The position numbers and the translations under genes are program-made. A stretch of DNA of 63,442 bases from Pirellula sp. Its GTDB lineage: Bacteria; Planctomycetota; Planctomycetia; Pirellulales; PNKZ01. The stretch lies in assembly GCA_013822735.1 (NCBI GenBank), contig PNKZ01000029.1:1-63442 (forward strand), read 5' to 3'. This document shows, one piece after another, positions 23,865 to 37,613 of this stretch (position 1 is its first letter; each line of letters begins with the position of its first letter). The notes below the pieces were generated by a model, which was given only the letters and a program-made list of their open reading frames with translations, was not told where the DNA came from and ran no database searches.

Positions 23865-26800
23865 TTAGCGGCGCGGCGCCCGTTCGTCGTCGGCAAGGTC
23901 CGGCTCGTCCGTCGGGTCGCCGTGTGCGGCATCGTCGTCCGAGTTGCTAGTAGAATGGCCGTTCCCGTTCGTGGCGTGGCCATGGCCGTTGGGTTCCGTG
24001 CGATACCGCAATTCCGGCGGGCGATAGCCGGCCGAGGCCGCAAAGCCTTCGCCCGAAGTGAGCGCCTTGGTGTCGTGGCCGGAGGCGACTTCGTACTGCA
24101 TCTCTTTCGGCACTTCGAGCGGCGGCAATTCGGAATCGAGCGGGGGGAGATCGGGCTCCGCGACTGCCATCGCGGGGCGACGCCCCCAAATCATCCGGCT
24201 CAGGCCCGTTTGCATTTCCATGCAAATGGTGAAGAGCGCGGGAATGAAGAAGAGCGTGAAGAAGGTCGAGAAGACGAGCCCGCCGAGCGTCACGCTGCCG
24301 AGGCCGCGATAAAGTTCGCTGCCTGCGCCGGGCGAAATGACCAGCGGCAACAAGCCGAGCAGGCCGATGAGCGCGGTCATGAAGATCGGGCGGATACGCG
24401 TGCGCACGCTGTCGAGCACCGCATCGCGCGGGCTCATTCCTTCGTCGCGCACGTTCTGCAGCGCTTGTTCGACGATGAGAATCGGATTGTTCACGACGGT
24501 GCCGACCAAGATGATGAAGCCGACCATGGTGAACATGTCGAGCGGTTGAAACGTGCCGGGACTGAAAGTCTCCAAGCCCTTATTTAATAGCCAGAGCCCG
24601 ATGAACCCGCCGACTGCGCCTAGCGGAACGCTCATCATGATGATCATCGGATACAGCCACGACTCGAACAGTGCGGCGATGACGAGGTACGTGATGATGA
24701 TCGCCAGCACGATGTTCCAGCGAATCGAAAGCCAGGTCGACTGCAGCTTGTCGGCGGTACCGGAAAGATTTACCTGGTAGAGTCCCTTGAGCGACGCGTC
24801 CCCTTCGATCGGTTTGACGATTTTTTCTTGGATCTGCACCATCGCTTCTTCGATGGGCATCTCCGCCGGCGGCGAAACCTGCACGGTGATGGCGCGGAGT
24901 CGCTCGCGGCGATTGATCTGCTCGGGCCCACTCGAGGCGATGACGTCGGCGACGGACTCCAGAGTGACCGTGCGTCCTTCCGGCGTGTGGATCGAAAGCC
25001 CGCGCACGTCTTGGGCGCTCTTGGCGCGCTGTTCGTTGCCGACGATCGCCAAGTCGATGCGGTCGCCGTCGAGGTTGTAGTCGCCCGCGTAGGCGCCGTC
25101 GACGAGCGCGTTGACGGCGTAGCCCATCTCCGAGGCCGTGATGCCGAGGTCGGCCGCTTGATCCCAACGGGGACGAATGTGGAGCTCCGGTGCGGAAAGA
25201 TCGGCGCTCGGGATCGGCCGAAACTGGGCGCCGGGCACGGTCGTGGGCACTTGGCCCATGACCTTGAGCGAGAGGGCGACGAGCTTCGTGACGTCGGGCC
25301 CCATGATTTCGATATCGACGGTGCGACCCGCCCCGAGGCCCGACTCGAACAAGCTGGCTTGCTTCGCCAAGACGAACATGCCGGGAATGTCGGCCGTCGC
25401 TTCTTGAATCAAGCCGAGCAACTTACCGGCCTGCAGCGGGTCTTCGGCGCGCAAGCCCATGAAGAGCATGCGGCCGCGGGCCACGTAGAAGAGGTCGCCG
25501 ATGCCCGCGGTTTTGCGCTCGGCAAGCGGAATGCGCGGGTCGGCGTCCCAATACTTGCGGAGCTTGTCCTCGATCTTCGAGCCGATGGCGTTCAGCTGGT
25601 CTAAGTTGTAGCCCGGCGGCGGCAGCATCAGGCCGATCGCCAAATTGCGGTTGCCGTTCGGCAGGTATTCCACCTTCGGCATCAGCAGCCAGGTAAAGAA
25701 GAACGAGAAAGCGAGGCAGCCGATGATGGTGCCGAGACGGAGGGCGTAGCTGTTTTGAATGACGGCGTTCGCGCCGACGATCAGGCTCGTGAAGGCGTCG
25801 CCGAACTTATCGAGCGGAGTCATGAGCCGTTGCATCCAGGTGCGGCGTCCCCCGTGGGTGTCGCTCATGGCGTCGGCGTCGTGCTGGAGAAGTTGCCCGG
25901 CCGCCATGGGAATGAGAATCAGCGATACGAGCAGCGACAGGCCCAACGCGCAACTGATCGAGAGAGCCAAGTCGTGGAATAGCTGGCCGACCTGGTCGTG
26001 TACGAAGAGTACGGGGACGAATACCGCGAGGTTGGCCAAGGTGCTGGCGATGACGGCGCCCCAGACTTCGCCGGTGCCTTTCACGACGGCGGAGATGATT
26101 GAATCGTGGTTCTGCCGATGCCGGAAAATGTTCTCAAGCACGACGATGAAGTTGTCGACGAGCATTCCGACGGCGAAGGAAATGCCCGCCAAGCTCAACA
26201 AGTTGAGCGAGCGGCCCATCAGCCCCATCATCAAGAACATGCCGATCATGCTGGTGCCGATCGCGATGAAAATCACGATCGTCGAACGGATATTCTTGAG
26301 GAACAACAAGAGCACGATGAAACTGAGCACCGCGCCTTCGACGACGTTGTCCGTAACCACGTCCATCGACGAGTAGATATACTCCGTCTCGTCGTAGACT
26401 TGCGTCAGCTCGAGATCGCGCGTCGCGAGCAGGCCGTCGTTGAGCTGTTGAACGGCGACCTTGAGCCCTTTCATGATGTCGAGGACGTTGGCGCCGGTCT
26501 CGCGCTGGACGTTCAGCGCGATCACGGCCTTGCCGTAGCGGCGCACGACGCCGTCGGGCTTTTTGTATCCCAGCCGCACTTTGGCGACGTCGCGCACGTA
26601 GACCGGCCGCCCGTCGACGCGCGCCAAGATCGCCGCCTCAATCTGTGCGGGCGAGCGAAATTCGCCGAGCGTCCGCACGACGATGCGTCGCTTTCCTTCC
26701 CACAGATCGCCGCCGCTGACGTCGGCATTTTGGCTGCGTAACGCATTGCGCACGGCTTCGATCGTCAACCCGCTCTTCGCCAGGAGTTCCGGCTCGACGA

Positions 26801-27509
26801 CGACCTGCATTTCTTCTTCGCGTCCGCCGACGACGTTGGAGTTCGACACTCCGGGGACGCGCTCAAACCGAGTTTCGATGAAGTCTTCGCAGAAGCGCCG
26901 CAGGACCGTGAGGTCTTGATCTTTCGGCAAGATCTCATTGACCTCGGGATGCTTCACGGCGAGCTCTTGGAGACGCAAAAGCTTCAAGCTGGCGTTGGAC
27001 GTCAGTCGGGCCGATTCGAGCGGCTCGGCCAACTGCGGATGCTTCGCCGCGAAGGCGTTGATCTTGTCGTCGCCCGGCGGCTTCAGATTCAAAATGAACC
27101 AGGCAATCCAGCGCTCGGCCGTATTCGACGAGAGAATCACCGGCTGGTCGGCGTCTTCCGGATACTCGGGCACTTGCTGGAGCCGGGTGCTCACCATCAA
27201 GAGCGCCTTGTTCATGTCGGCGTCGACGGCGAACTCCAAAATGATTCGCCCCATCGAGTCCATGCTTTCGCTCGTGAGCTTTTGCAGGCCTTCGACGCTC
27301 TGGAGTTGTTCTTCCTGCTCCTGGACGATTTCCTTTTCAACTTCCTGAGGGCTCGCACCGGGCCAGCGCGTTTCGACCGTGATCGTCGGAATATCGACGT
27401 CGGGCGTCAGCTGCATCGGCATCTTATAAAGCGCAATGCCGCCGAACAGCGCCACGAGAATGACGCCGACGATCACCTTCACCGGGTTGCGAACAAACGA
27501 CTCAATCAC
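23865..27509 (-). CDS. RND-family efflux permease (HAE1-like)
   Basis: A 1214-residue inner-membrane proton-driven pump. The start MIESFVRNPVKVIVGVILVA is the first helix, followed by the porter domain (PGASPQEVEKEI). The central helices include VLENIFRHRQNHDS and GEVWGAVIASTLANLAVFVPVLFV. The second half repeats the layout and ends with GTVVNNPILIVEQALQNVR and the helix 10-12 region. A charged, His/Gly/Asn-rich cytoplasmic tail of about 100 residues is longer than usual. With the adaptor encoded just upstream (45 bp, same strand) it would form a tripartite pump for drugs, detergents or metals; no TolC-type gene lies in the window. The type is closer to HAE1/AcrB than to CusA. Confidence 0.92.
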   Translation of the reverse strand: MIESFVRNPVKVIVGVILVALFGGIALYKMPMQLTPDVDIPTITVETRWPGASPQEVEKEIVQEQEEQLQSVEGLQKLTSESMDSMGRIILEFAVDADMNKALLMVSTRLQQVPEYPEDADQPVILSSNTAERWIAWFILNLKPPGDDKINAFAAKHPQLAEPLESARLTSNASLKLLRLQELAVKHPEVNEILPKDQDLTVLRRFCEDFIETRFERVPGVSNSNVVGGREEEMQVVVEPELLAKSGLTIEAVRNALRSQNADVSGGDLWEGKRRIVVRTLGEFRSPAQIEAAILARVDGRPVYVRDVAKVRLGYKKPDGVVRRYGKAVIALNVQRETGANVLDIMKGLKVAVQQLNDGLLATRDLELTQVYDETEYIYSSMDVVTDNVVEGAVLSFIVLLLFLKNIRSTIVIFIAIGTSMIGMFLMMGLMGRSLNLLSLAGISFAVGMLVDNFIVVLENIFRHRQNHDSIISAVVKGTGEVWGAVIASTLANLAVFVPVLFVHDQVGQLFHDLALSISCALGLSLLVSLILIPMAAGQLLQHDADAMSDTHGGRRTWMQRLMTPLDKFGDAFTSLIVGANAVIQNSYALRLGTIIGCLAFSFFFTWLLMPKVEYLPNGNRNLAIGLMLPPPGYNLDQLNAIGSKIEDKLRKYWDADPRIPLAERKTAGIGDLFYVARGRMLFMGLRAEDPLQAGKLLGLIQEATADIPGMFVLAKQASLFESGLGAGRTVDIEIMGPDVTKLVALSLKVMGQVPTTVPGAQFRPIPSADLSAPELHIRPRWDQAADLGITASEMGYAVNALVDGAYAGDYNLDGDRIDLAIVGNEQRAKSAQDVRGLSIHTPEGRTVTLESVADVIASSGPEQINRRERLRAITVQVSPPAEMPIEEAMVQIQEKIVKPIEGDASLKGLYQVNLSGTADKLQSTWLSIRWNIVLAIIITYLVIAALFESWLYPMIIMMSVPLGAVGGFIGLWLLNKGLETFSPGTFQPLDMFTMVGFIILVGTVVNNPILIVEQALQNVRDEGMSPRDAVLDSVRTRIRPIFMTALIGLLGLLPLVISPGAGSELYRGLGSVTLGGLVFSTFFTLFFIPALFTICMEMQTGLSRMIWGRRPAMAVAEPDLPPLDSELPPLEVPKEMQYEVASGHDTKALTSGEGFAASAGYRPPELRYRTEPNGHGHATNGNGHSTSNSDDDAAHGDPTDEPDLADDERAPRR

Positions 27510-27554: not shown

Positions 27555-28877
27555 CTATTGTGGACGATTGCCAGGAGCGGGCAGTTGCGTCGTCGCGCCG
27601 GCGGGCTGAGCCGCGGGCGTCGGCGCCCCGCGCGATGCCGCGACAATGCGAATCGGCTGCTCCGGACGCAAGCGCTCGTTCCCTTCGATCACGAGCTCCA
27701 TGCCGGGCTCTAACGGGCCCGACGCTTCAAAGTATTCGTCGAACGCGCTGCCGAGCGTCACCGGAATGAGCTTGGCCTTGGCCGTCTCGGCGCCGGCCGC
27801 ATCGCGCACGGCGGCGTAGACGATCGGCACCGGGCCTCCCATGACGACCGCGTCTTGCGGGATCAACAGCACGCTCTCGCGCCGCTCGACCGGCAACCAG
27901 ACGCGGGCAAACATGCCCGACTTCACGAGCGGGTGGTTCGAGGAATCAAACTTATTCTTCAGCCGAATCTTCACCGGAAAATTGCGCGAGCGCGGGTCGC
28001 CTCGCGGCACGACCGCCGACACTTGGCCGACGAACAATTGCCCCGGCAGCGCCGGAATTTCGATCCGCGCGTTGCTGCCGAGCTTCACGAAGTCGAGATA
28101 GTTTTCTAAGACCTGAGCTTCGACTTCGAGTTCGGTGAGTTCCTCGACTTCGGCGACCAACTCGCCCGACTTGATCCATTGCCCGACTTCGGTGTGTTCG
28201 GCGACCACGTAACCTTCAAACGGCGTGGTGATCGTATGCTTCATGAGGAGGTCTTTGAGGCGGTTCACCTCTTCGACCGCCATGAGCTCCCGGGCCTGGG
28301 CTTGCGCGATTTTTTCTACGCGCGGGCCGGCGAGCACGAGATCGTGCGCCGCCTTGGCGGCTTCGTACATTTGAGCCGCGGCCAAGGCCTTCGACATGTC
28401 GTCTTGCAACTGGTCTTCGCTGACCGCATTGCGTTCGAAAAGAGCTTTGGTCCGTTGCAGCTTGAGTTGCACGTAGTCGTAGGCGGCTTGCGCGGCGGCC
28501 ATTTTCGCATTGGCTTCGCGCTTCTCTTCGGGCCGAGCTCCGTTTTGCAATTCTTGCAGTTCCGAGGTCTTCAGTTTCAGGTCGGCCTCGGCGGCGGCGA
28601 TCTGGATTTCGAGTTGCTTGGTGAGCAGCTGCGCCAACGGCTGCTTGGCCGTGACGTAGTCGCCTGCGTTCACTTTGAACTCGACGACGCGACCATCCAC
28701 GGCGCTGCCGATCACGGAGCGGCGAATCGGGTGGACGTGCCCGACGAACGATTGGCCGGCTTCCACATTTTGCCGCACGACGACGGGAGAAACGGAAACG
28801 ATCGCCGGTCCGCCTTGGGCGAAAACGGCGTTCGCCGTCGTGGCGACGAGACAGATCGCGATCAGTGCGATACGCAT
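27555..28877 (-). CDS. RND efflux pump periplasmic adaptor (membrane fusion protein)
   Basis: A 440-residue exported adaptor. The signal peptide is about residues 1-21. A lipoyl-type half-motif (VDGRVVEFKVNAGDYVTAKQ, about 63-82) is followed by a long coiled-coil hairpin (about 85-205, Lys/Glu/Ala-rich), the second lipoyl half (ITTPFEGYVVAEHTEVGQW), a beta-barrel (GSNARIEIPALPGQLFVGQV) and a membrane-proximal domain. A Pro/Ala/Thr-rich end follows. It lies 45 bp upstream of the RND permease and is surely co-transcribed with it. The start at 28877 fits the signal peptide. Confidence 0.92.
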   Translation of the reverse strand: MRIALIAICLVATTANAVFAQGGPAIVSVSPVVVRQNVEAGQSFVGHVHPIRRSVIGSAVDGRVVEFKVNAGDYVTAKQPLAQLLTKQLEIQIAAAEADLKLKTSELQELQNGARPEEKREANAKMAAAQAAYDYVQLKLQRTKALFERNAVSEDQLQDDMSKALAAAQMYEAAKAAHDLVLAGPRVEKIAQAQARELMAVEEVNRLKDLLMKHTITTPFEGYVVAEHTEVGQWIKSGELVAEVEELTELEVEAQVLENYLDFVKLGSNARIEIPALPGQLFVGQVSAVVPRGDPRSRNFPVKIRLKNKFDSSNHPLVKSGMFARVWLPVERRESVLLIPQDAVVMGGPVPIVYAAVRDAAGAETAKAKLIPVTLGSAFDEYFEASGPLEPGMELVIEGNERLRPEQPIRIVAASRGAPTPAAQPAGATTQLPAPGNRPQ

Positions 28878-30291: not shown

Positions 30292-30326
30292 AAAAAAGCC
30301 GGCCCGGGATTTTACTCCCGGGCCGG
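30292..30326 (-). terminator. Intrinsic terminator of the cysteine-rich protein gene
   Basis: On the minus strand TCCGGCCCGGGA and TCCCGGGCCGGC pair around a TAAAA-type loop and are followed by six T. It lies about 45 bp after the stop codon of the cysteine-rich gene. Confidence 0.85.
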
Positions 30327-30371: not shown

Positions 30372-31592
30372 TTAATAAGCGTGGGCAATCGAGCGGCCGC
30401 TGCGGATCGTGGCCGAAGGATCGACCATCGGAGGAGGAGGCATCGGGCCCTTTTCCTTCTTCGGAGCAACCTTCGGGGCGACCGGAGCTTCCATTCCGCA
30501 AGTCGGAGCAGCGGCACAGGCCGGTTCGGCACAAGCCGGAGCGGCACAGGCAGGAGCAGCACAAGCAGGAGCGGCACAGGTCGGGGCGGCACAGGTCGGG
30601 GCAGCGTTACCGCAAGCCGGTTCGGCACAAGCCGGAGCCGAGCAAGCAGGAGCGGCACAGGCCGGGGCAGCGTTTCCGCAAGCCGGATCAGCACAAGCCG
30701 TGCAGCCGTTGCCCGCGTTGCCGCAGGTGGCTTCGCAGCAGCTGCTCTTGCAGCAAGAGCTACGGCACTTGAACAGGTTGCCTAGCAGACCGCCGCAACC
30801 CTTCTTGCAGCACGAGCTGCCGCAAGGATCGCAGCAGCCGTTGCCGGCTCCGCACGAAGGACCGGCAGCACCGCAAGCCGGATCAGCACAAGCCGAGCAG
30901 CCGTTACCGGCGTTGCCGCAGGTGGCTTCGCAGCAAGCAGCCTTGTCGCAACCGCTATCGCAGCAGCTCTTCTTGCAGCAGCCGCCGAGAAGGCGATCGA
31001 GGATGCCGAGACGCTTGCAGCACGAGCTGCCGCAAGGATCGCAGCAGCCGTTGCCGGCTCCGCACGAAGGACCAGCCGAACCGCAAGCCGGATCACAAGC
31101 AGCTTGACCGCAGCCCGGGCCCGCGTTGCCGCAGGACGGACCGGCAGCGCCGCAAGCCGGATCAGCACAAGCGGCCTTACCGCAAGCCGGATCAGCACAA
31201 GCCGTGCAGCCGTTGCCCGCGTTGCCGCAGGTGGCTTCGCAGCAGGCGGCCTGATCGCAGCAGCCGGTGTCGCAACCGCTGTTGCAGCAATTGCCGCGGT
31301 TCAACAGGCCGCGAAGGCCCGAGAACAGACCGCAGCCGGACTTGCAGCCGCTACCACACGGGTCGCAGCAGCCGTCGCCGGCCGAACCACAGCCCGGATC
31401 GCAGCAGCCGTTACCGGCGGTGCCGCAAGCGGGATCATGACAAGCCTTGCCCGCGTCACAGCAGGACGGTTCGCAGCAAGAAGGGCTGCAGCATCCGCCA
31501 CCCACCATGCGATCGAGCAAGCCGGCTCCGAAGCTTTGGCTACAGAGCCCGGCGCTTAAGACCAGCGCCCCAAGAAACTTAGAGAATTTCAT
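30372..31592 (-). CDS. Exported cysteine-rich repeat protein
   Basis: A 406-residue exported protein with an extreme cysteine content. The ATG at 31592, preceded by AAAGGAG, opens a signal peptide (MKFSKFLGALVLSAGLCSQ). The mature protein has four modules that each begin with a short hydrophobic turn (GLLDRMVGGGCC, GLRGLLNRGNCC, GILDRLLGGCCKK, GGLLGNLFKCRSSCC), followed by CC/CxxC clusters. CCEATCGNAGNGC and CADPACG recur three or more times. The last 110 residues are a CAAPAC/CAEPAC pentapeptide array ending in a Pro/Lys tail. Such a protein is likely cross-linked by disulfides in the envelope, as in planctomycete cell-wall proteins; this role is inferred. Confidence 0.8.
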   Translation of the reverse strand: MKFSKFLGALVLSAGLCSQSFGAGLLDRMVGGGCCSPSCCEPSCCDAGKACHDPACGTAGNGCCDPGCGSAGDGCCDPCGSGCKSGCGLFSGLRGLLNRGNCCNSGCDTGCCDQAACCEATCGNAGNGCTACADPACGKAACADPACGAAGPSCGNAGPGCGQAACDPACGSAGPSCGAGNGCCDPCGSSCCKRLGILDRLLGGCCKKSCCDSGCDKAACCEATCGNAGNGCSACADPACGAAGPSCGAGNGCCDPCGSSCCKKGCGGLLGNLFKCRSSCCKSSCCEATCGNAGNGCTACADPACGNAAPACAAPACSAPACAEPACGNAAPTCAAPTCAAPACAAPACAAPACAEPACAAAPTCGMEAPVAPKVAPKKEKGPMPPPPMVDPSATIRSGRSIAHAY

Positions 31593-32169
31593 CGAGCAAC
31601 GTCTCCTTTGCATGGAACTGGGGCAGCGCGCCGCTGCGCCTAACTCCCGCGGAGAACGCACCTCTTGTGCTGCTGAAGCGAAGTCGATTCCACAATTCGC
31701 ACAGGCTTCATGCCTGGCGTTTCGTGAGGCCGTCTTCAGAGGGTCGTTCCGTCGGTTTGTTTGGCGAAGCTGCGTGGGTCGGAACCCGCAGTTCACAAGT
31801 TATGAACACCAGTGCCGTCGAGCCCTTCCGTGGCTCGAGGATCCAGGTACGGCAACTAATGTCGCAACGGGCCGGTTTGGCTCCGTTTGCATCTAATGGA
31901 CCACGAAGCTCATCGGCCTGACGAAGAATCCGCCTTGAACGCCGGAAGTAATTTTCCCCAAATGGTTTACGTTGCCTTAGGCGCAAACTTTGACCGTCGC
32001 GCAAGATGCGTCGACTTTGCGGGCGCAGCGTTACCAAATGCGTGCATCTCCGCCCGTTTCGGGGCCTTAAAGCTTCTGGTATCCTCCTAGTTTTCCAAGC
32101 GTCGGCCTCCCGTCTGCCTACCCCCTTGGAAAGGCAGACGTAGACCGCACTCCCTCGAAAGTTGCATCG
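31593..32169. other. Divergent intergenic region (577 bp)
   Basis: It separates the cysteine-rich gene (minus) from the VOC gene (plus). It must hold both promoters, and the cysteine-rich gene may have a leader of several hundred bases. It contains a short hairpin before the VOC gene (32111-32140). GC is somewhat lower than in the neighbours. No coding frame is supported. Confidence 0.5.
32111..32140 (+). repeat. Inverted repeat in the VOC gene leader
   Basis: CGTCTGCCT (32111-32119) and AGGCAGACG (32132-32140) form a perfect 9-bp stem with a 12-base loop, 30 bp before the VOC start codon. It could be an operator or an mRNA hairpin; it has no T-run for termination. Confidence 0.45.
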
Positions 32170-32619: not shown

Positions 32620-32895
32620 TCTCCCCAGGTGGCGTTGGCGAAATTCACCTCGGCGAGCTGCCTTCGACGGCAACAATCGTCGATAAGCCGGAACTTTTGC
32701 TCGGTTTTTGCCCGGTTTCGCACCGCGGCCATCCTTGCTCGCCGTTTTCGCCCTGCGTATTCTTAGTGTTCCTTCCTCCTGCCTCCCCGGCTTTTGAGCG
32801 AGAACGAATCGTCGCCGAGCCGGGGCTTTCCCGCCGCCTGCCCCCAGTGTTGTCCCGACACGTACTTCTTCCCAATTCGCATTGAGATGCTTTCT

Positions 32896-35166
32896 ATGAA
32901 CGTCGCTCGCACACTTCGCCGTTTCCTGCATTCCTCCGCGGCGCTGGTCGGCTGCGGTTTCGCGGTGCTCGTTGCTTCGAGCGGCGTCGCCGCCGATCCG
33001 ATGGATTGGCCGAGCTGGCGCGGCCCGGAACAAAACGGCATCTCGCGCGAAACCGGCCTGCCGGGCGAATGGGATTTCGAAGGGACGAACCTGCTTTGGA
33101 AGAACACGGAGCTGGCTACACGTTCGACCCCGATTGTGATGAACGGCAAGCTCTATACGCTGGCGCGCAGCTACCCGGAAACGACGAAGGAAGGGGAAAA
33201 GGTCATCTGCGCCGATGCCGCAACCGGCAAGGTGCTTTGGGAGAACAAGTTCAACGTGTTCCTCTCGGACGTGCCCGCCGAGCGCGTGGCGTGGGGCGTG
33301 TGCGCAGGCGATCCGGAAACGGGCCGCGTCTATGCGATGGGGGTCTGCGGTTTATTTCAATGCATCGACGGCGAGACCGGCAAGACGATCTGGAGCCGTT
33401 CGCTCAGCGAACAGTTCGGCTTGCTCAGCACCTACGGCGGACGTACAAACTCGGCCGTCGTGTTTGAGAACCTGGTGCTCATCAGCGCCGTCATGACGAA
33501 CTGGGGCGAACTCGCCGTCCCGGCGCATCGCTTCATCGCCATGGATAAGGCCACGGGTGAAGTCCTCTGGTTCAACGGCACGAGCCTCCGACCGGACGAC
33601 ACCACCTACAGCACGCCGACCATGAGCGTGATCGGCGGTCAAGCGGCGATGGTGTTCGGCTCGGGCGACGGCCGCGTTTGGGCCATGCAACCGCGCACGG
33701 GCAAGCCGCTGTGGAACTACCAGCTTTCGCTCCGCGGCTTGAACGTTTCGCCGCTCGTCGAGAAAGACATCGTCTACATGGGCCAGAGCGAAGAGAACCC
33801 CGACGATAGCAGCATGGGCGCCGTCGCGGCCATCAACGCGAAGGCGGGCGCGGGCGATGTGACGAAGACCGCAGCGCTCTGGCGCAACAAGAAACAAATG
33901 GTCGGAAAGAGCTCGCCGCTCTTGATCGGCGATCGGCTTTACGCCTTCGACGACGGCAACATCCTCTATGTGCTCGACGCGAAGACCGGCGAAGAAATTG
34001 GTAAACCCGTTCGCTTGATCGGCTCGATCATGCGCGCCAGCCCGCTCTATGCCGACGGCAAGATCTACGCTTGCACGACCAGCGCGTGGCACGTCATCGA
34101 GCCGAACGAAAAGGGTGCGAAAGTGACGCATCGCCTGCGTTTTCCCAACGGCGAAGAAATTCACGGCTCGCCGATTGTTTCGCACGGCCGCATCTACCTG
34201 CCGTCGATCGAGGCCATGTATTGCATCGGTTTGAAAGATGCGAAGCCCGCGGCCGGCGAGATCCCCGCGCCGCCGAAGGAAAACGAAGTCACCGACAAGA
34301 CGGCAGCACAGGTGCAAATCGTGCCGGCCGAGGTGCTCATGAAGCCGGGCGAGAAGATCGCCTTCAAGGTTCGCTTGTTCAACGCCGCCGGGCAACTCGT
34401 CGGCGAAGCGAGCGACGCCAAGTTTAGCGTGACGACCGGCGGCGAAATCGACTCCGCGGGCAACTTCACCGCCTCCAGCGAGCCGAAGCATGTCGGCGTG
34501 TACGTCACCGCCGACGTCGGCGGCATTCAAGGCAAGGCCCGCGTTCGCATCGTGCCGCCGCTCCCTTGGACGTTTGACTTCAACGCCACGGCGATCGACA
34601 CGCCGAACCCCGTGACGGGCGTGCTTGAAGGAGAACCGCCGATCACGTGGATCGGCGCCCGTTATCGCCACAAGATTCGCGTGGTCGACGGCGACAACAA
34701 GATGGTGAAAGTGACGACCATCCCCAAGGGAACGCGCAGCCAAAGCTGGATGGGCCCGACCGATCTGCACGACTACACCGTGCAAGCTGAAGTACGCGGA
34801 GCAGGCGGACCTGGTCGCATGCCGGATGCCGGCGTGATTGCTCAACGCTACACGCTCGACCTGATGGGCAACGCCCAACAATTGCAAATTCGTTCTTGGA
34901 CGGCTCAGTTGCAAAACCGCTTCGCCGTGAACGTTCCGTTCGCTTGGGAACCGGGCGTCACTTATGTTCTGAAGTTCCGCGCCGAGACCGACGGCGAAAA
35001 GGCCCACCTCAAAGGCAAAGCTTGGAAGAAGGGGGATGCGGAGCCCGCTGAGTGGACGATTACCGGCACCGACGAAGCAGGCAACTTAAGCGGCAGCCCC
35101 GGCTTGTTCGGCAACGCATCCGTCGCCGAAGTGACTTACGACAACATCACCGTGACGCCCAACTAG
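32896..35166 (+). CDS. Secreted PQQ-like beta-propeller protein
   Basis: A 756-residue exported protein. The start at 32896 (alternative 32887) gives a signal peptide of about 31 residues ending GVAAD. It opens with the DWPSWRGPEQNGISRETGLP motif that marks planctomycete PQQ-like proteins. Repeated blades follow, each of the type AATGKVLWENKF, GETGKTIWSRSL, KATGEVLWFNG, RTGKPLWNYQL and AKTGEEIGKPV, up to about residue 440. After a linker comes an Ig-like segment (PAEVLMKPGEKIAFKVRLF) and a C-terminal beta-sandwich resembling a carbohydrate-binding module. A second propeller gene follows 104 bp later, probably in one transcript. Enzyme activity is not evident. Confidence 0.87.
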   Translation: MNVARTLRRFLHSSAALVGCGFAVLVASSGVAADPMDWPSWRGPEQNGISRETGLPGEWDFEGTNLLWKNTELATRSTPIVMNGKLYTLARSYPETTKEGEKVICADAATGKVLWENKFNVFLSDVPAERVAWGVCAGDPETGRVYAMGVCGLFQCIDGETGKTIWSRSLSEQFGLLSTYGGRTNSAVVFENLVLISAVMTNWGELAVPAHRFIAMDKATGEVLWFNGTSLRPDDTTYSTPTMSVIGGQAAMVFGSGDGRVWAMQPRTGKPLWNYQLSLRGLNVSPLVEKDIVYMGQSEENPDDSSMGAVAAINAKAGAGDVTKTAALWRNKKQMVGKSSPLLIGDRLYAFDDGNILYVLDAKTGEEIGKPVRLIGSIMRASPLYADGKIYACTTSAWHVIEPNEKGAKVTHRLRFPNGEEIHGSPIVSHGRIYLPSIEAMYCIGLKDAKPAAGEIPAPPKENEVTDKTAAQVQIVPAEVLMKPGEKIAFKVRLFNAAGQLVGEASDAKFSVTTGGEIDSAGNFTASSEPKHVGVYVTADVGGIQGKARVRIVPPLPWTFDFNATAIDTPNPVTGVLEGEPPITWIGARYRHKIRVVDGDNKMVKVTTIPKGTRSQSWMGPTDLHDYTVQAEVRGAGGPGRMPDAGVIAQRYTLDLMGNAQQLQIRSWTAQLQNRFAVNVPFAWEPGVTYVLKFRAETDGEKAHLKGKAWKKGDAEPAEWTITGTDEAGNLSGSPGLFGNASVAEVTYDNITVTPN

Positions 35167-35270
35167 AACAGATCGCCGGAAGTTCTCGGAGCGAGGGCCG
35201 CCGCAAGGTGACTCGCCTCCACGACTTTCTCACAACCGAATACTCAGGCACGACCCGAAGGATTTTCGAA

Positions 35271-37613
35271 ATGACATTCTCGTTGTATAAGTTCGTCGCT
35301 TCCGCCTGTACGGCGGGGCTGATTCTCGTCGCGGGTTGCGAATCGAAGCCGAAGTCTCCCGTCGGCACCGGTAGCGGTGCGGCCTCCGGAAGTTCCGCCG
35401 CCGCGCAGATTCCGGCGGAGCCGCATGCCTCGCCGGTCGTTGAACTCGGCAAGGGGACACCCGCGGCCGAGATGCCGAAAGAAACAAAACCTGCGGAGAC
35501 GAAGCCTGCCGATAAGGCCGTGGTCGCGGAAACGAAACCCGCTGACGTCAAACCTGCTGAGGCCAAACCGGCCGAAGTGAAGCCGACCGTGCAAGCGGAA
35601 AGTAAGCCGGAAGCGAAGCCGGCTCCGGTCGCGGTCGCCATGGCGACCGATGCGAAGCCCGCCGCCGCGGCAAGCGCCGCTTCGAGCGAAACGGAAGCTG
35701 GCTTCATTCCGCCGCAAGCGTCGCTTGCCGGTAAGGAGTCGATTCCCGCGCCGGTCTACGGTGTGAAGAAAGACGATTGGAACCAATGGGGCGGCTCGTC
35801 CGTGCGCAATAACATTCCCGAAGGCAAGAACATCGCCTCGGAATGGGATCTCGGCGAAAGCTATCTCAACGAAGGGGTCTTCAAGAAAGACGAGGCTTCC
35901 AAAAACGTACAATGGGCCGCCGCCGTCGGGTCGCAAACCTACGGCAATCCGGTCGTCGCCAACGGCAGTGTATATGTCGGCACCAACAACGGCGCCGGCT
36001 GGCTCAAGCGCTTTCCGGCCAACGTCGATCTCGGCTGCTTGATCGCCTTCGCTGAAGCAGACGGCAAGTTCCTCTGGCAACACTCCAGCGAAAAGCTCCC
36101 CACGGGCCGCGTGCACGATTGGCCGATGCAAGGCATCTGCTGCTCGCCGCTCGTCGAAGGCACCAAGCTTTGGTACGTCACCAGCCGCGGCTTGGTCGTT
36201 TGCCTCGACACCGAAGGTTTTCACGACGGCGAAGACGACGGTCCGGTGCTCGCCGAACCGGTGCGCTTGTTCGACGTGATGAAGAACGACGACCCGAAGC
36301 TCGACAAAGTGGAACCGATGCTTGTCGAACTTCGCGAAGGCAAGGTCGGCGAAGGCCTGCGCAAACTCTTTGCCGCCTCAGGCCTGGAGCTTCCCGCCGA
36401 CGTGAAAGTTGAAAAGGGAAAGCGCCCCAGCAGCTTCGTGGGCAAGTGCCAAATCGGCGGGGCCGAGCGCGTCGTTCAGTTGCAAATGGAAGGCCCGAAG
36501 CTCGGCGTGTATAAGGTGCTCAACATCACCGACAAAGATGAAGCCGACGTGATTTGGCAGCTCGACATGATGAACGAGCTCGGCGTCTCGCAGCACAACA
36601 TGTGCTCCTGCTCCGTGACCGACGCAGGCGACATTCTTTTCGTCTGCACCTCGAACGGCGTCGACGAAGGGCACATCAACCTGCCGTCACCGAACGCTCC
36701 GAGCTTCCTCGGCGTCGACAAGAAGACCGGCAAGCTCCTCTGGAAAGACGGCAGCCCGGGCCTCAACATTTTGCACGGCCAATGGTCGAGCCCCGCCTAC
36801 GCCGTGATCGACGGCGTGCCGCAAGTGATCTTCGCCGGCGGCGACGGCTGGCTCTACTCCTTCAAGGGAGACGCGGGCAAGGACGGCAAGGTCGAACTCC
36901 TCTGGAAATTCGATGCCAACCCGAAAACCTCGAAGTACATCCTCGGCGGCCGCGGCACGCGCAACGAAATCATCGCCACGCCGGTGATCTACAACGACTT
37001 GGTCTATCTGGCCGTCGGGCAAGATCCGGAACACGGCGAAGGAATCGGCCACCTCTGGTGCATCGACCCGAAGAAGCGCGGCGACATCTCGGGCGAGCTC
37101 GCCTTCAGCCTGAAAGACCCGAAGACGCCGATTCCGCACCGCCGCTTGCAGGCCGTCATCGAAGAAGAAGGGGAAGTCGCTCGGCCGAACCCGAACTCGG
37201 GCGTGGTCTGGCACTACAGCGAGTTTGATAAAGACGGCAACAAGAAGTTTGCCTGGGAAGAGCAGATGCACCGCACCTGCGGCACCGTGGCGATCAAAGA
37301 CGACCTGCTCTACATCGCCGACTTTAGCGGCTTGTTCCACTGCGTCGATGCCAAGACCGGCGTTCCGTATTGGACGCACGACTTGCTCGCCGCGTGCTGG
37401 GGCTCGGCCATGATCGTCGACGGCAAGGTTTACTGCGGCGACGAAGAAGGGAAGATCGTCGTCTTCAAGCACTCGAAGGAGTACGAAGAGCCGATCGTCA
37501 ACGAAATGGGCAACTCGGTCTACACCACGCCGGTCGTCGCCAACAATAAGCTGTTCATCGCCAACAAGACCCACGTCTTCTGCATCGGCGACGAGAAGAG
37601 CGACAAGAAGTAA
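35271..37613 (+). CDS. PQQ-like beta-propeller lipoprotein
   Basis: A 780-residue lipoprotein. The ATG at 35271 follows AAGGATTTTCGAA; the lipobox is LVAGC with Cys near residue 23. A disordered linker of Lys/Pro/Ala/Glu repeats (about 60-140, ETKPADVKPAEAKPAEVK type) carries the globular part away from the membrane. The propeller starts at DDWNQWGGSSVRNN and shows blades such as EADGKFLWQHSSEK, KKTGKLLWKDGSPG, KVELLWKFDANP, KTGVPYWTHDL and ANNKLFIANKTHVF. A rare insertion (about 260-330) interrupts two blades. It is paired with the preceding propeller gene and ends before a strong terminator. Confidence 0.87.
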   Translation: MTFSLYKFVASACTAGLILVAGCESKPKSPVGTGSGAASGSSAAAQIPAEPHASPVVELGKGTPAAEMPKETKPAETKPADKAVVAETKPADVKPAEAKPAEVKPTVQAESKPEAKPAPVAVAMATDAKPAAAASAASSETEAGFIPPQASLAGKESIPAPVYGVKKDDWNQWGGSSVRNNIPEGKNIASEWDLGESYLNEGVFKKDEASKNVQWAAAVGSQTYGNPVVANGSVYVGTNNGAGWLKRFPANVDLGCLIAFAEADGKFLWQHSSEKLPTGRVHDWPMQGICCSPLVEGTKLWYVTSRGLVVCLDTEGFHDGEDDGPVLAEPVRLFDVMKNDDPKLDKVEPMLVELREGKVGEGLRKLFAASGLELPADVKVEKGKRPSSFVGKCQIGGAERVVQLQMEGPKLGVYKVLNITDKDEADVIWQLDMMNELGVSQHNMCSCSVTDAGDILFVCTSNGVDEGHINLPSPNAPSFLGVDKKTGKLLWKDGSPGLNILHGQWSSPAYAVIDGVPQVIFAGGDGWLYSFKGDAGKDGKVELLWKFDANPKTSKYILGGRGTRNEIIATPVIYNDLVYLAVGQDPEHGEGIGHLWCIDPKKRGDISGELAFSLKDPKTPIPHRRLQAVIEEEGEVARPNPNSGVVWHYSEFDKDGNKKFAWEEQMHRTCGTVAIKDDLLYIADFSGLFHCVDAKTGVPYWTHDLLAACWGSAMIVDGKVYCGDEEGKIVVFKHSKEYEEPIVNEMGNSVYTTPVVANNKLFIANKTHVFCIGDEKSDKK

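Follow-up and report, generated by a model that had tools for sequence, protein, structure and literature searches.

A cysteine-rich exported protein of Pirellula sp. is encoded behind a conserved promoter-like element and a structured leader RNA, and relatives of its gene were found across the order Pirellulales. The gene lies in the window, the whole stretch of 63,442 nucleotides that was analyzed. Its product is probably a structural matrix protein that cross-links by disulfides in the cell envelope and is subject to transcriptional and RNA-level control of its own. With its conserved promoter-like element and covarying leader, the cysteine-rich reading frame becomes a regulated, order-wide gene and a strong candidate for tightly controlled envelope building material.

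An earlier note on this gene was partly supported: export, modular build, recent internal duplication, and distinctness from the YTV-type proteins stood. The promoter-like element, the leader RNA, the terminator-like hairpin, and the order-wide occurrence had no place in it. The features are listed in Table 1.

Table 1. Positions of the features of the cysteine-rich gene and its flanking regions in the window
Feature	Position	Strand	Basis or remark
Terminator-like hairpin	30299..30326		11 pairs, 10 of them G-C, and a T run; about 45 nt past the stop codon
Gene for cysteine-rich exported protein	30372..31592	-	406 aa; ATG at 31592, stop codon 30372-30374 included
Cysteine-free conserved C-terminal tail (PMPPPPMVDPSA...)	30375..30485	-	Two family alignments
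C-terminal array of CAxPxC units	30516..30659	-	Motif count
Repeat CCEATCGNAGNGC, copy 3	30702..30740	-	Repeat search
Hydrophobic segment 4 (GGLLGNLF region)	30765..30794	-	Translation and family alignment
Repeat CCEATCGNAGNGC, copy 2	30897..30935	-	Repeat search
Hydrophobic segment 3 (LGILDRLLGG region)	30981..31013	-	Translation and family alignment
Repeat CCEATCGNAGNGC, copy 1	31206..31244	-	Repeat search
Hydrophobic segment 2 (GLFSGLRGLLNR)	31296..31331	-	Translation and family alignment
Hydrophobic segment 1 (GLLDRMVGG)	31497..31523	-	Translation and family alignment
Predicted signal peptide MKFSKFLGALVLSAGLCSQSFG, residues 1-22	31527..31592	-	Reading of sequence and alignment
Shine-Dalgarno (SD) region AAGGAGACGTTGCTCG, directly before ATG	31593..31608	-	SD beside a CUC able to pair with its GAG
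Structured leader RNA (model R1)	31797..31879	-	57.5 bits; covariation
Promoter-like element TCAAG-N16-GCCGAT	31912..31938	-	Upstream alignments and pattern search
Conserved A/T-rich stretch (TAAACCATTTG..GAAAA.TACTTCCG), upstream of promoter-like element	31943..31969	-	Upstream alignments

Features of the protein and its internal repeats

The gene boundaries given earlier were exact, and the four hydrophobic segments and cysteine blocks described with them are real. Cysteine accounts for 78 of the 406 residues (19%), and the cysteine blocks alternate with short hydrophobic segments at residues about 24–32, 88–99, 194–204, and 267–276. Export, as proposed in the earlier note, is indicated by a signal peptide read from the sequence, in which type I cleavage after SFG is likely. 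The cysteine in the signal segment was tested as part of a lipobox and was not conserved in all members (L189, L191, L193, and L200 are without it), which argues against a lipoprotein; the residue preceding this cysteine is mostly L, V, I, M, or F, and A in L097.

The modular build is borne out by CCEATCGNAGNGC, present in three exact copies (at residues 117, 220, and 285), by CADPACG, present in four (at residues 132, 142, 235, and 300), and by seven copies of CA[AEST]P[AT]C within residues 312–359. The window protein contains 60 repeated 8-mers, compared with a mean of 0.004 and a maximum of 2 in 2000 shuffles. At the DNA level, repeats of 82 nt (at 30804 and 31014) and 41 nt (at 30702 and 31206) are 96–98% identical, indicating that the duplication is recent, as had been claimed, or that the copies have been kept uniform by homogenization. 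Gaps of exactly five residues between cysteines numbered 17 against 6.3 ± 2.4 in the shuffled window protein. CC doublets, at 17 against 12.7 ± 2.5 in shuffles, were barely above the expectation from composition. AlphaFold2 gave a mean pLDDT of 45.7, and the mature part was mostly without confident structure. Terminator-like sites such as that downstream of the stop codon numbered three in the region and 2.8 in shuffles, so their frequency is at chance level.

Distribution and composition of the family

The earlier note had suggested a search of planctomycete genomes for relatives, and these are present throughout the order Pirellulales. A single-sequence search yielded relatives in 54 of 97 related genomes. 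From named genomes, 80 loci were taken as the best of 84; they include loci from Rhodopirellula rubra, R. solitaria, R. sallentina, Aporhodopirellula aestuarii, and Roseimaritima sediminicola. A profile search of the class, whose matches are partly compositional, gave matches in 66 of 248 genomes, including 60 of the 65 genomes within the same order. Two of the five same-order genomes missed by the profile (G023 and G090) still carry the leader and a cysteine-rich reading frame. In a few genomes, such as G029 and G092, the profile hits a different cysteine-rich gene that has no leader, so the family has paralogues. The window's own genome contains one on contig C10 (L002:1492-1902, + strand), which encodes a cysteine-rich, exported-looking protein of 137 aa and has neither an R1 match nor the promoter element.

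Outside the order, 6 of about 183 genomes had profile matches, which were weaker and without the leader; searching the class with R1 matched none of the six. The three that were inspected (L218–L220) encode cysteine-rich, exported-looking proteins, and the promoter element and the hairpin are absent from them. The proteins of L218 and L219, from another family of the same class, are short and carry CCPEPTCC repeats with no leader RNA; these two may be distant relatives or cases of convergence.

Cysteine content was 9–23%, with a median of 17.6%, at the 96 of 110 loci with a protein of at least 180 residues. The family consists mainly of Cys, Ala, Gly, and Pro; Trp and Tyr are almost absent, and His amounts to 2.0%. 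In the alignments, the signal peptide and the LLDRMLG that follows it, the hydrophobic LLxxLF segments, and the cysteine-free tail PMPPAPxxDPSA are conserved, and the cysteine blocks between these parts turn over freely. No description of this protein family or of its leader was found in the literature covered, which leaves out most subscription journals.

The gene neighborhoods of 80 loci (L032–L111) revealed no clear functional partner among the conserved neighbors. At 26 of the 80 loci, the opposite strand carries beta-propeller (PQQ_2-like) genes, almost always upstream. In the window, two consecutive PQQ_2/BamB-like beta-propeller proteins are encoded at 32794–37613 (+). A cobalamin riboswitch on the opposite (-) strand was found upstream at 2 of 12 loci scanned (L011:853-1072 and L014:795-1052), both from family f8, and probably belongs to a divergent neighbor.

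Structure and distribution of the leader RNA

The 5′ leader is roughly 300 nt long. Within it, model R1 comprises an outer helix, a CCG/CGG helix, and a hairpin, which reads CGAGCC-ACGGAAG-GGCUCG in the window and has the consensus CGAGYC-(A)NGGA..-GGYUCG across sequences. In a training set of 39 sequences, picked for diversity from 66 distinct hairpin regions, 89.3% of the cells were paired, compared with 24–36% when the structure was slid along the alignment. The set contained 63 two-sided changes against 17.8 when shuffled, and its covariation score was reached in 0 of 500 shuffles. Two-sided changes were found in 9 of 17 pairs (4 of 500 shuffles): six of six in the outer helix, three of four in the second helix, and none in the hairpin. 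At 27 independent sites, defined as R1 sites at places outside the training set, such changes affected 13 of the 17 pairs, four of them in the hairpin, with 0 of 500 shuffles reaching any of the measures; pairing was 90.6% against 23–38% in slid controls, in an alignment that was fitted to R1 and therefore leans towards the model. These data support the leader as a structured RNA in which compensatory changes keep the pairing.

R1 gave 79 matches in 75 of the 97 genomes and no match in the other 22, and 75 of the 79 lie at a cysteine-rich exported reading frame, nearly always with one site per genome. Inspection of 57 matches, in which the reading frame richest in cysteine within reach was taken, showed that a cysteine-rich frame follows in 53; the remaining 22 are on the same contig as a single-sequence protein match. 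L205 and L206 (E > 1e-3, no cysteine-rich frame) were treated as chance matches, and L207 and L208 run into contig ends. In the class search, 42 of 248 genomes matched, all 42 within the same order.

At the Rhodopirellula-type loci, R1 matched 0 of 14 at E ≤ 1, indicating that the leader RNA differs within the order. A different conserved leader is present there; its hairpin loop mostly contains GGA, and a CTCC before the start codon is invariant in the 14 aligned. In L057, L072, L075, L083 (R. rubra CECT 8075), and similar loci, this strongly conserved leader lies about 360 nt upstream and has long-range ACGAAGUC/GACUUCGU complementarity, and most have GGAG..CUCC complementarity at the start codon. 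A relationship is conceivable between the leader, especially in its Rhodopirellula-type form, and the Rhodopirellula-1 motif, a candidate RNA known here by the table line that lists it for Proteobacteria and Planctomycetes (Weinberg 2010, PMC2864571).

Candidate translational control

The hairpin loop carries ANGGA at 25 of the 27 independent sites and GGA at all 27. The corresponding numbers in the training set are 37 and 39 of 39; these sequences were collected by a pattern requiring GGA, so the latter number proves nothing and the former is only partly free. CsrA binds ANGGA motifs displayed in hairpin loops. An exact CUC 3′ of the SD was present in 68 of 79 distinct sequences, compared with 7.3 in shuffled tails, although only 30 SD tails are distinct, 20 of them with CUC; a laxer YUY pattern was found in 73 of the 79. 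Every one of the 97 genomes has CsrA, at 2 to 14 matches per genome and eight in the window's own, and its presence therefore discriminates nothing. From the ANGGA loop, the CUC after the SD, and the occurrence of CsrA in 97 of 97 genomes, we infer a CsrA-type translational control of the leader, a reading that is weakened by the AGGA that the SD contains anyway.

It is unlikely that the leader, instead of being a protein target, is a riboswitch that senses a small molecule such as a sulfur compound. The compact covarying structure and a hairpin sequence conserved beyond the needs of pairing would suit a riboswitch; however, a CsrA-type target accounts better for the ANGGA loop and the arrangement at the SD. 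Many riboswitches act on several genes, whereas this leader has one site in nearly all matching genomes. It is also without an Rfam match: Rfam 15 gave none for the window leader (E ≤ 1) or for 12 related loci (E ≤ 0.5).

Promoter-like element

TCAAG-N16-GCCGAT was found in 66 of 92 distinct upstream regions, at 122–383 nt before the start codon. These regions were drawn from 110 loci by removing duplicates and one short region and keeping paralogue L002. The spacer was 16 in all 66 although 8–24 was permitted, and such constant spacing at a variable distance to the gene fits a promoter. Among sites located with the RNA model, many of them the same places as the upstream regions, the element was present in 29 of 30 in a first set and in 18 of 24 in a second set, including one with N15 and counting two chance matches in the 24. 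L221–L224, from four genomes of the same order without a significant genome-wide R1 match (L221 itself gave a weak one, E 0.007), likewise have the N16 element, and the protein follows. Genome-wide, TCAAG-N16-GCCGATA occurs in 85 of 97 genomes, with many sites away from the gene; this exact form is absent from the window's own genome because the window has GCCGATG. The constant spacing suggests that the element acts as a dedicated, conserved promoter of the gene.

Proposed function and alternatives

The export signal, the high cysteine content of 9–23%, the lack of any enzymatic or known domain, and the retention across the order speak for a structural matrix. The window protein had no match in Pfam, NCBIfam, or PDB at E ≤ 1, and a profile compared with PDB gave no known domain for it. 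The wall of R. baltica is described as a protein sacculus with disulfide bonds in a passage of PMC2754498, and this description, together with the cysteine-rich YTV wall proteins treated in part of PMC8567305, provides a prior for a disulfide wall. A disulfide-stabilized coat, one of the two functions offered in the earlier note, is the best-supported reading, plausible but unproven.

Under this reading, the gene would be transcribed from the dedicated promoter-like element, and the leader would fold into a three-helix RNA whose hairpin loop exposes ANGGA; the SD of the leader lies next to a CUC able to pair with it. Translation would be controlled by an RNA-binding protein, for which one of the several CsrA homologues is the likeliest candidate. 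The predicted signal peptide would export the protein, and the cysteine blocks would cross-link by disulfides outside the cytoplasm to give an insoluble network, with the short hydrophobic segments and the cysteine-free C-terminal tail perhaps serving assembly or anchoring. The protein would work like vertebrate keratin-associated proteins, alongside the YTV proteins of the same cell. We regard it as possible, though somewhat short of probable, that the leader is a new cis-regulatory RNA class with one target per genome across the order, gating production of a keratin-like disulfide matrix from which the planctomycete protein wall is built.

The protein could instead be secreted, or kept reduced and metal-binding. 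An exported metal-binding or storage protein, whose cysteine clusters bind Cu, Zn, or Cd and whose leader senses metal or redox state, seems improbable. Clusters of the CC, CxxC, and CxxxC types and nearby efflux-type genes in the window (HlyD/CusB-like at 27555–28877 and RND-like at 23865–27509) point in this direction, but efflux-like genes were absent from the 14 most frequent neighbor clusters of the 80 loci, judged from one example each, and histidine is just 2.0% of the family. A match to a metallothionein-type family, which the earlier note had named as counter-evidence to its proposal, was found neither for the window protein (Pfam, E ≤ 1) nor among 22 aligned members. Classical metallothioneins are small and cytosolic, and the signal peptide argues against one.

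Low probability also attaches to an adhesive or holdfast/stalk protein, that is, a disulfide-cross-linked polar glue of sessile cells. The protein is exported, of low complexity, and cysteine-rich, and R. baltica, according to a passage of PMC2754498, forms a holdfast and passes through sessile and motile stages. However, no glycan-partner or secretion genes were evident among the most frequent neighbors of the 80 loci, and the protein is found whether or not a genome has flagellin, which means that it does not follow the swarmer lifestyle.

The distribution of flagellin bears also on the idea that the cysteine-rich protein is a flagellar-regulon product under a sigma-28 (FliA) promoter. This is very improbable: GCCGATA resembles the sigma-28 −10 element, but the sigma-28 consensus spacing is two shorter than the spacing here, the window's own genome has no flagellin, and the link was largely refuted by flagellin-free genomes with the protein (in family f8, 11 of 11 genomes with a protein match and 0 of 11 with flagellin) and by the occurrence of the N16 element in 0 of 30 flagellin upstream regions, three of which (L146, L150, and L151), however, carry TAAA and CCGAT at a distance shortened by one base. 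The congeneric genomes G001–G003, unlike the window's own genome (G000), do have flagellin.

Significance for the planctomycete wall

In the 1980s the walls of planctomycetes were characterized as protein sacculi containing disulfide bonds, as cited in a passage of PMC2754498, and YTV proteins are the wall candidates named in the literature passages covered. The cysteine-rich protein is a second wall candidate, order-wide and with a conserved regulatory leader, so that a single deletion and a single reporter could probe what a protein wall is made of and how it is controlled. With one RNA for one gene, the leader is also a clean setting in which to look for a new regulator and, if the proposal is true, would be an RNA switch for a non-peptidoglycan wall.

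Comparison with known systems

YTV proteins (PF07639) resemble the window family in being cysteine-rich, repeated, and restricted to planctomycetes, and they are wall-associated. They differ in being encoded by separate genes, with 21 matches over three contigs in the window's own genome, and the YTV profile matched neither the window protein nor the 22 aligned members at E ≤ 1, in agreement with the distinction drawn in the earlier note. Because this genome has YTV proteins, the cysteine-rich protein cannot be its sole wall candidate. Cysteine-rich YTV proteins have been found in planctomycete wall preparations (part of PMC8567305, citing Hieu 2008 and Mahajan 2020a), and a passage of PMC10632474 reports a YTV protein in the essential set of Planctopirus limnophila.

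The nearest functional analogy is to vertebrate keratin-associated high-sulfur proteins (PF13885 and PF01500), which share CCxPxCC-like repeats and a disulfide matrix, the latter being proposed for the bacterial family. Keratin_B2_2 (PF13885) matched 6 of the 22 aligned members (best E 9.1e-9) and not the window protein, in low-complexity sequence where the match may be compositional; we read it as convergence on a disulfide-matrix design, not as membership. In contrast to the keratin-associated proteins, the bacterial family is exported and has hydrophobic segments and a conserved C-terminal tail. Among PVC bacteria, chlamydial OmcA and OmcB are cysteine-rich, disulfide-linked envelope proteins of the outer membrane; the window protein differs from them in lacking any Pfam match at E ≤ 1.

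In mRNA leaders controlled by CsrA/RsmA, GGA lies in hairpin loops with a further site at the SD, and the leader described here is likewise arranged. It differs from those leaders in being long, about 300 nt, and in carrying a conserved, covarying three-helix domain.
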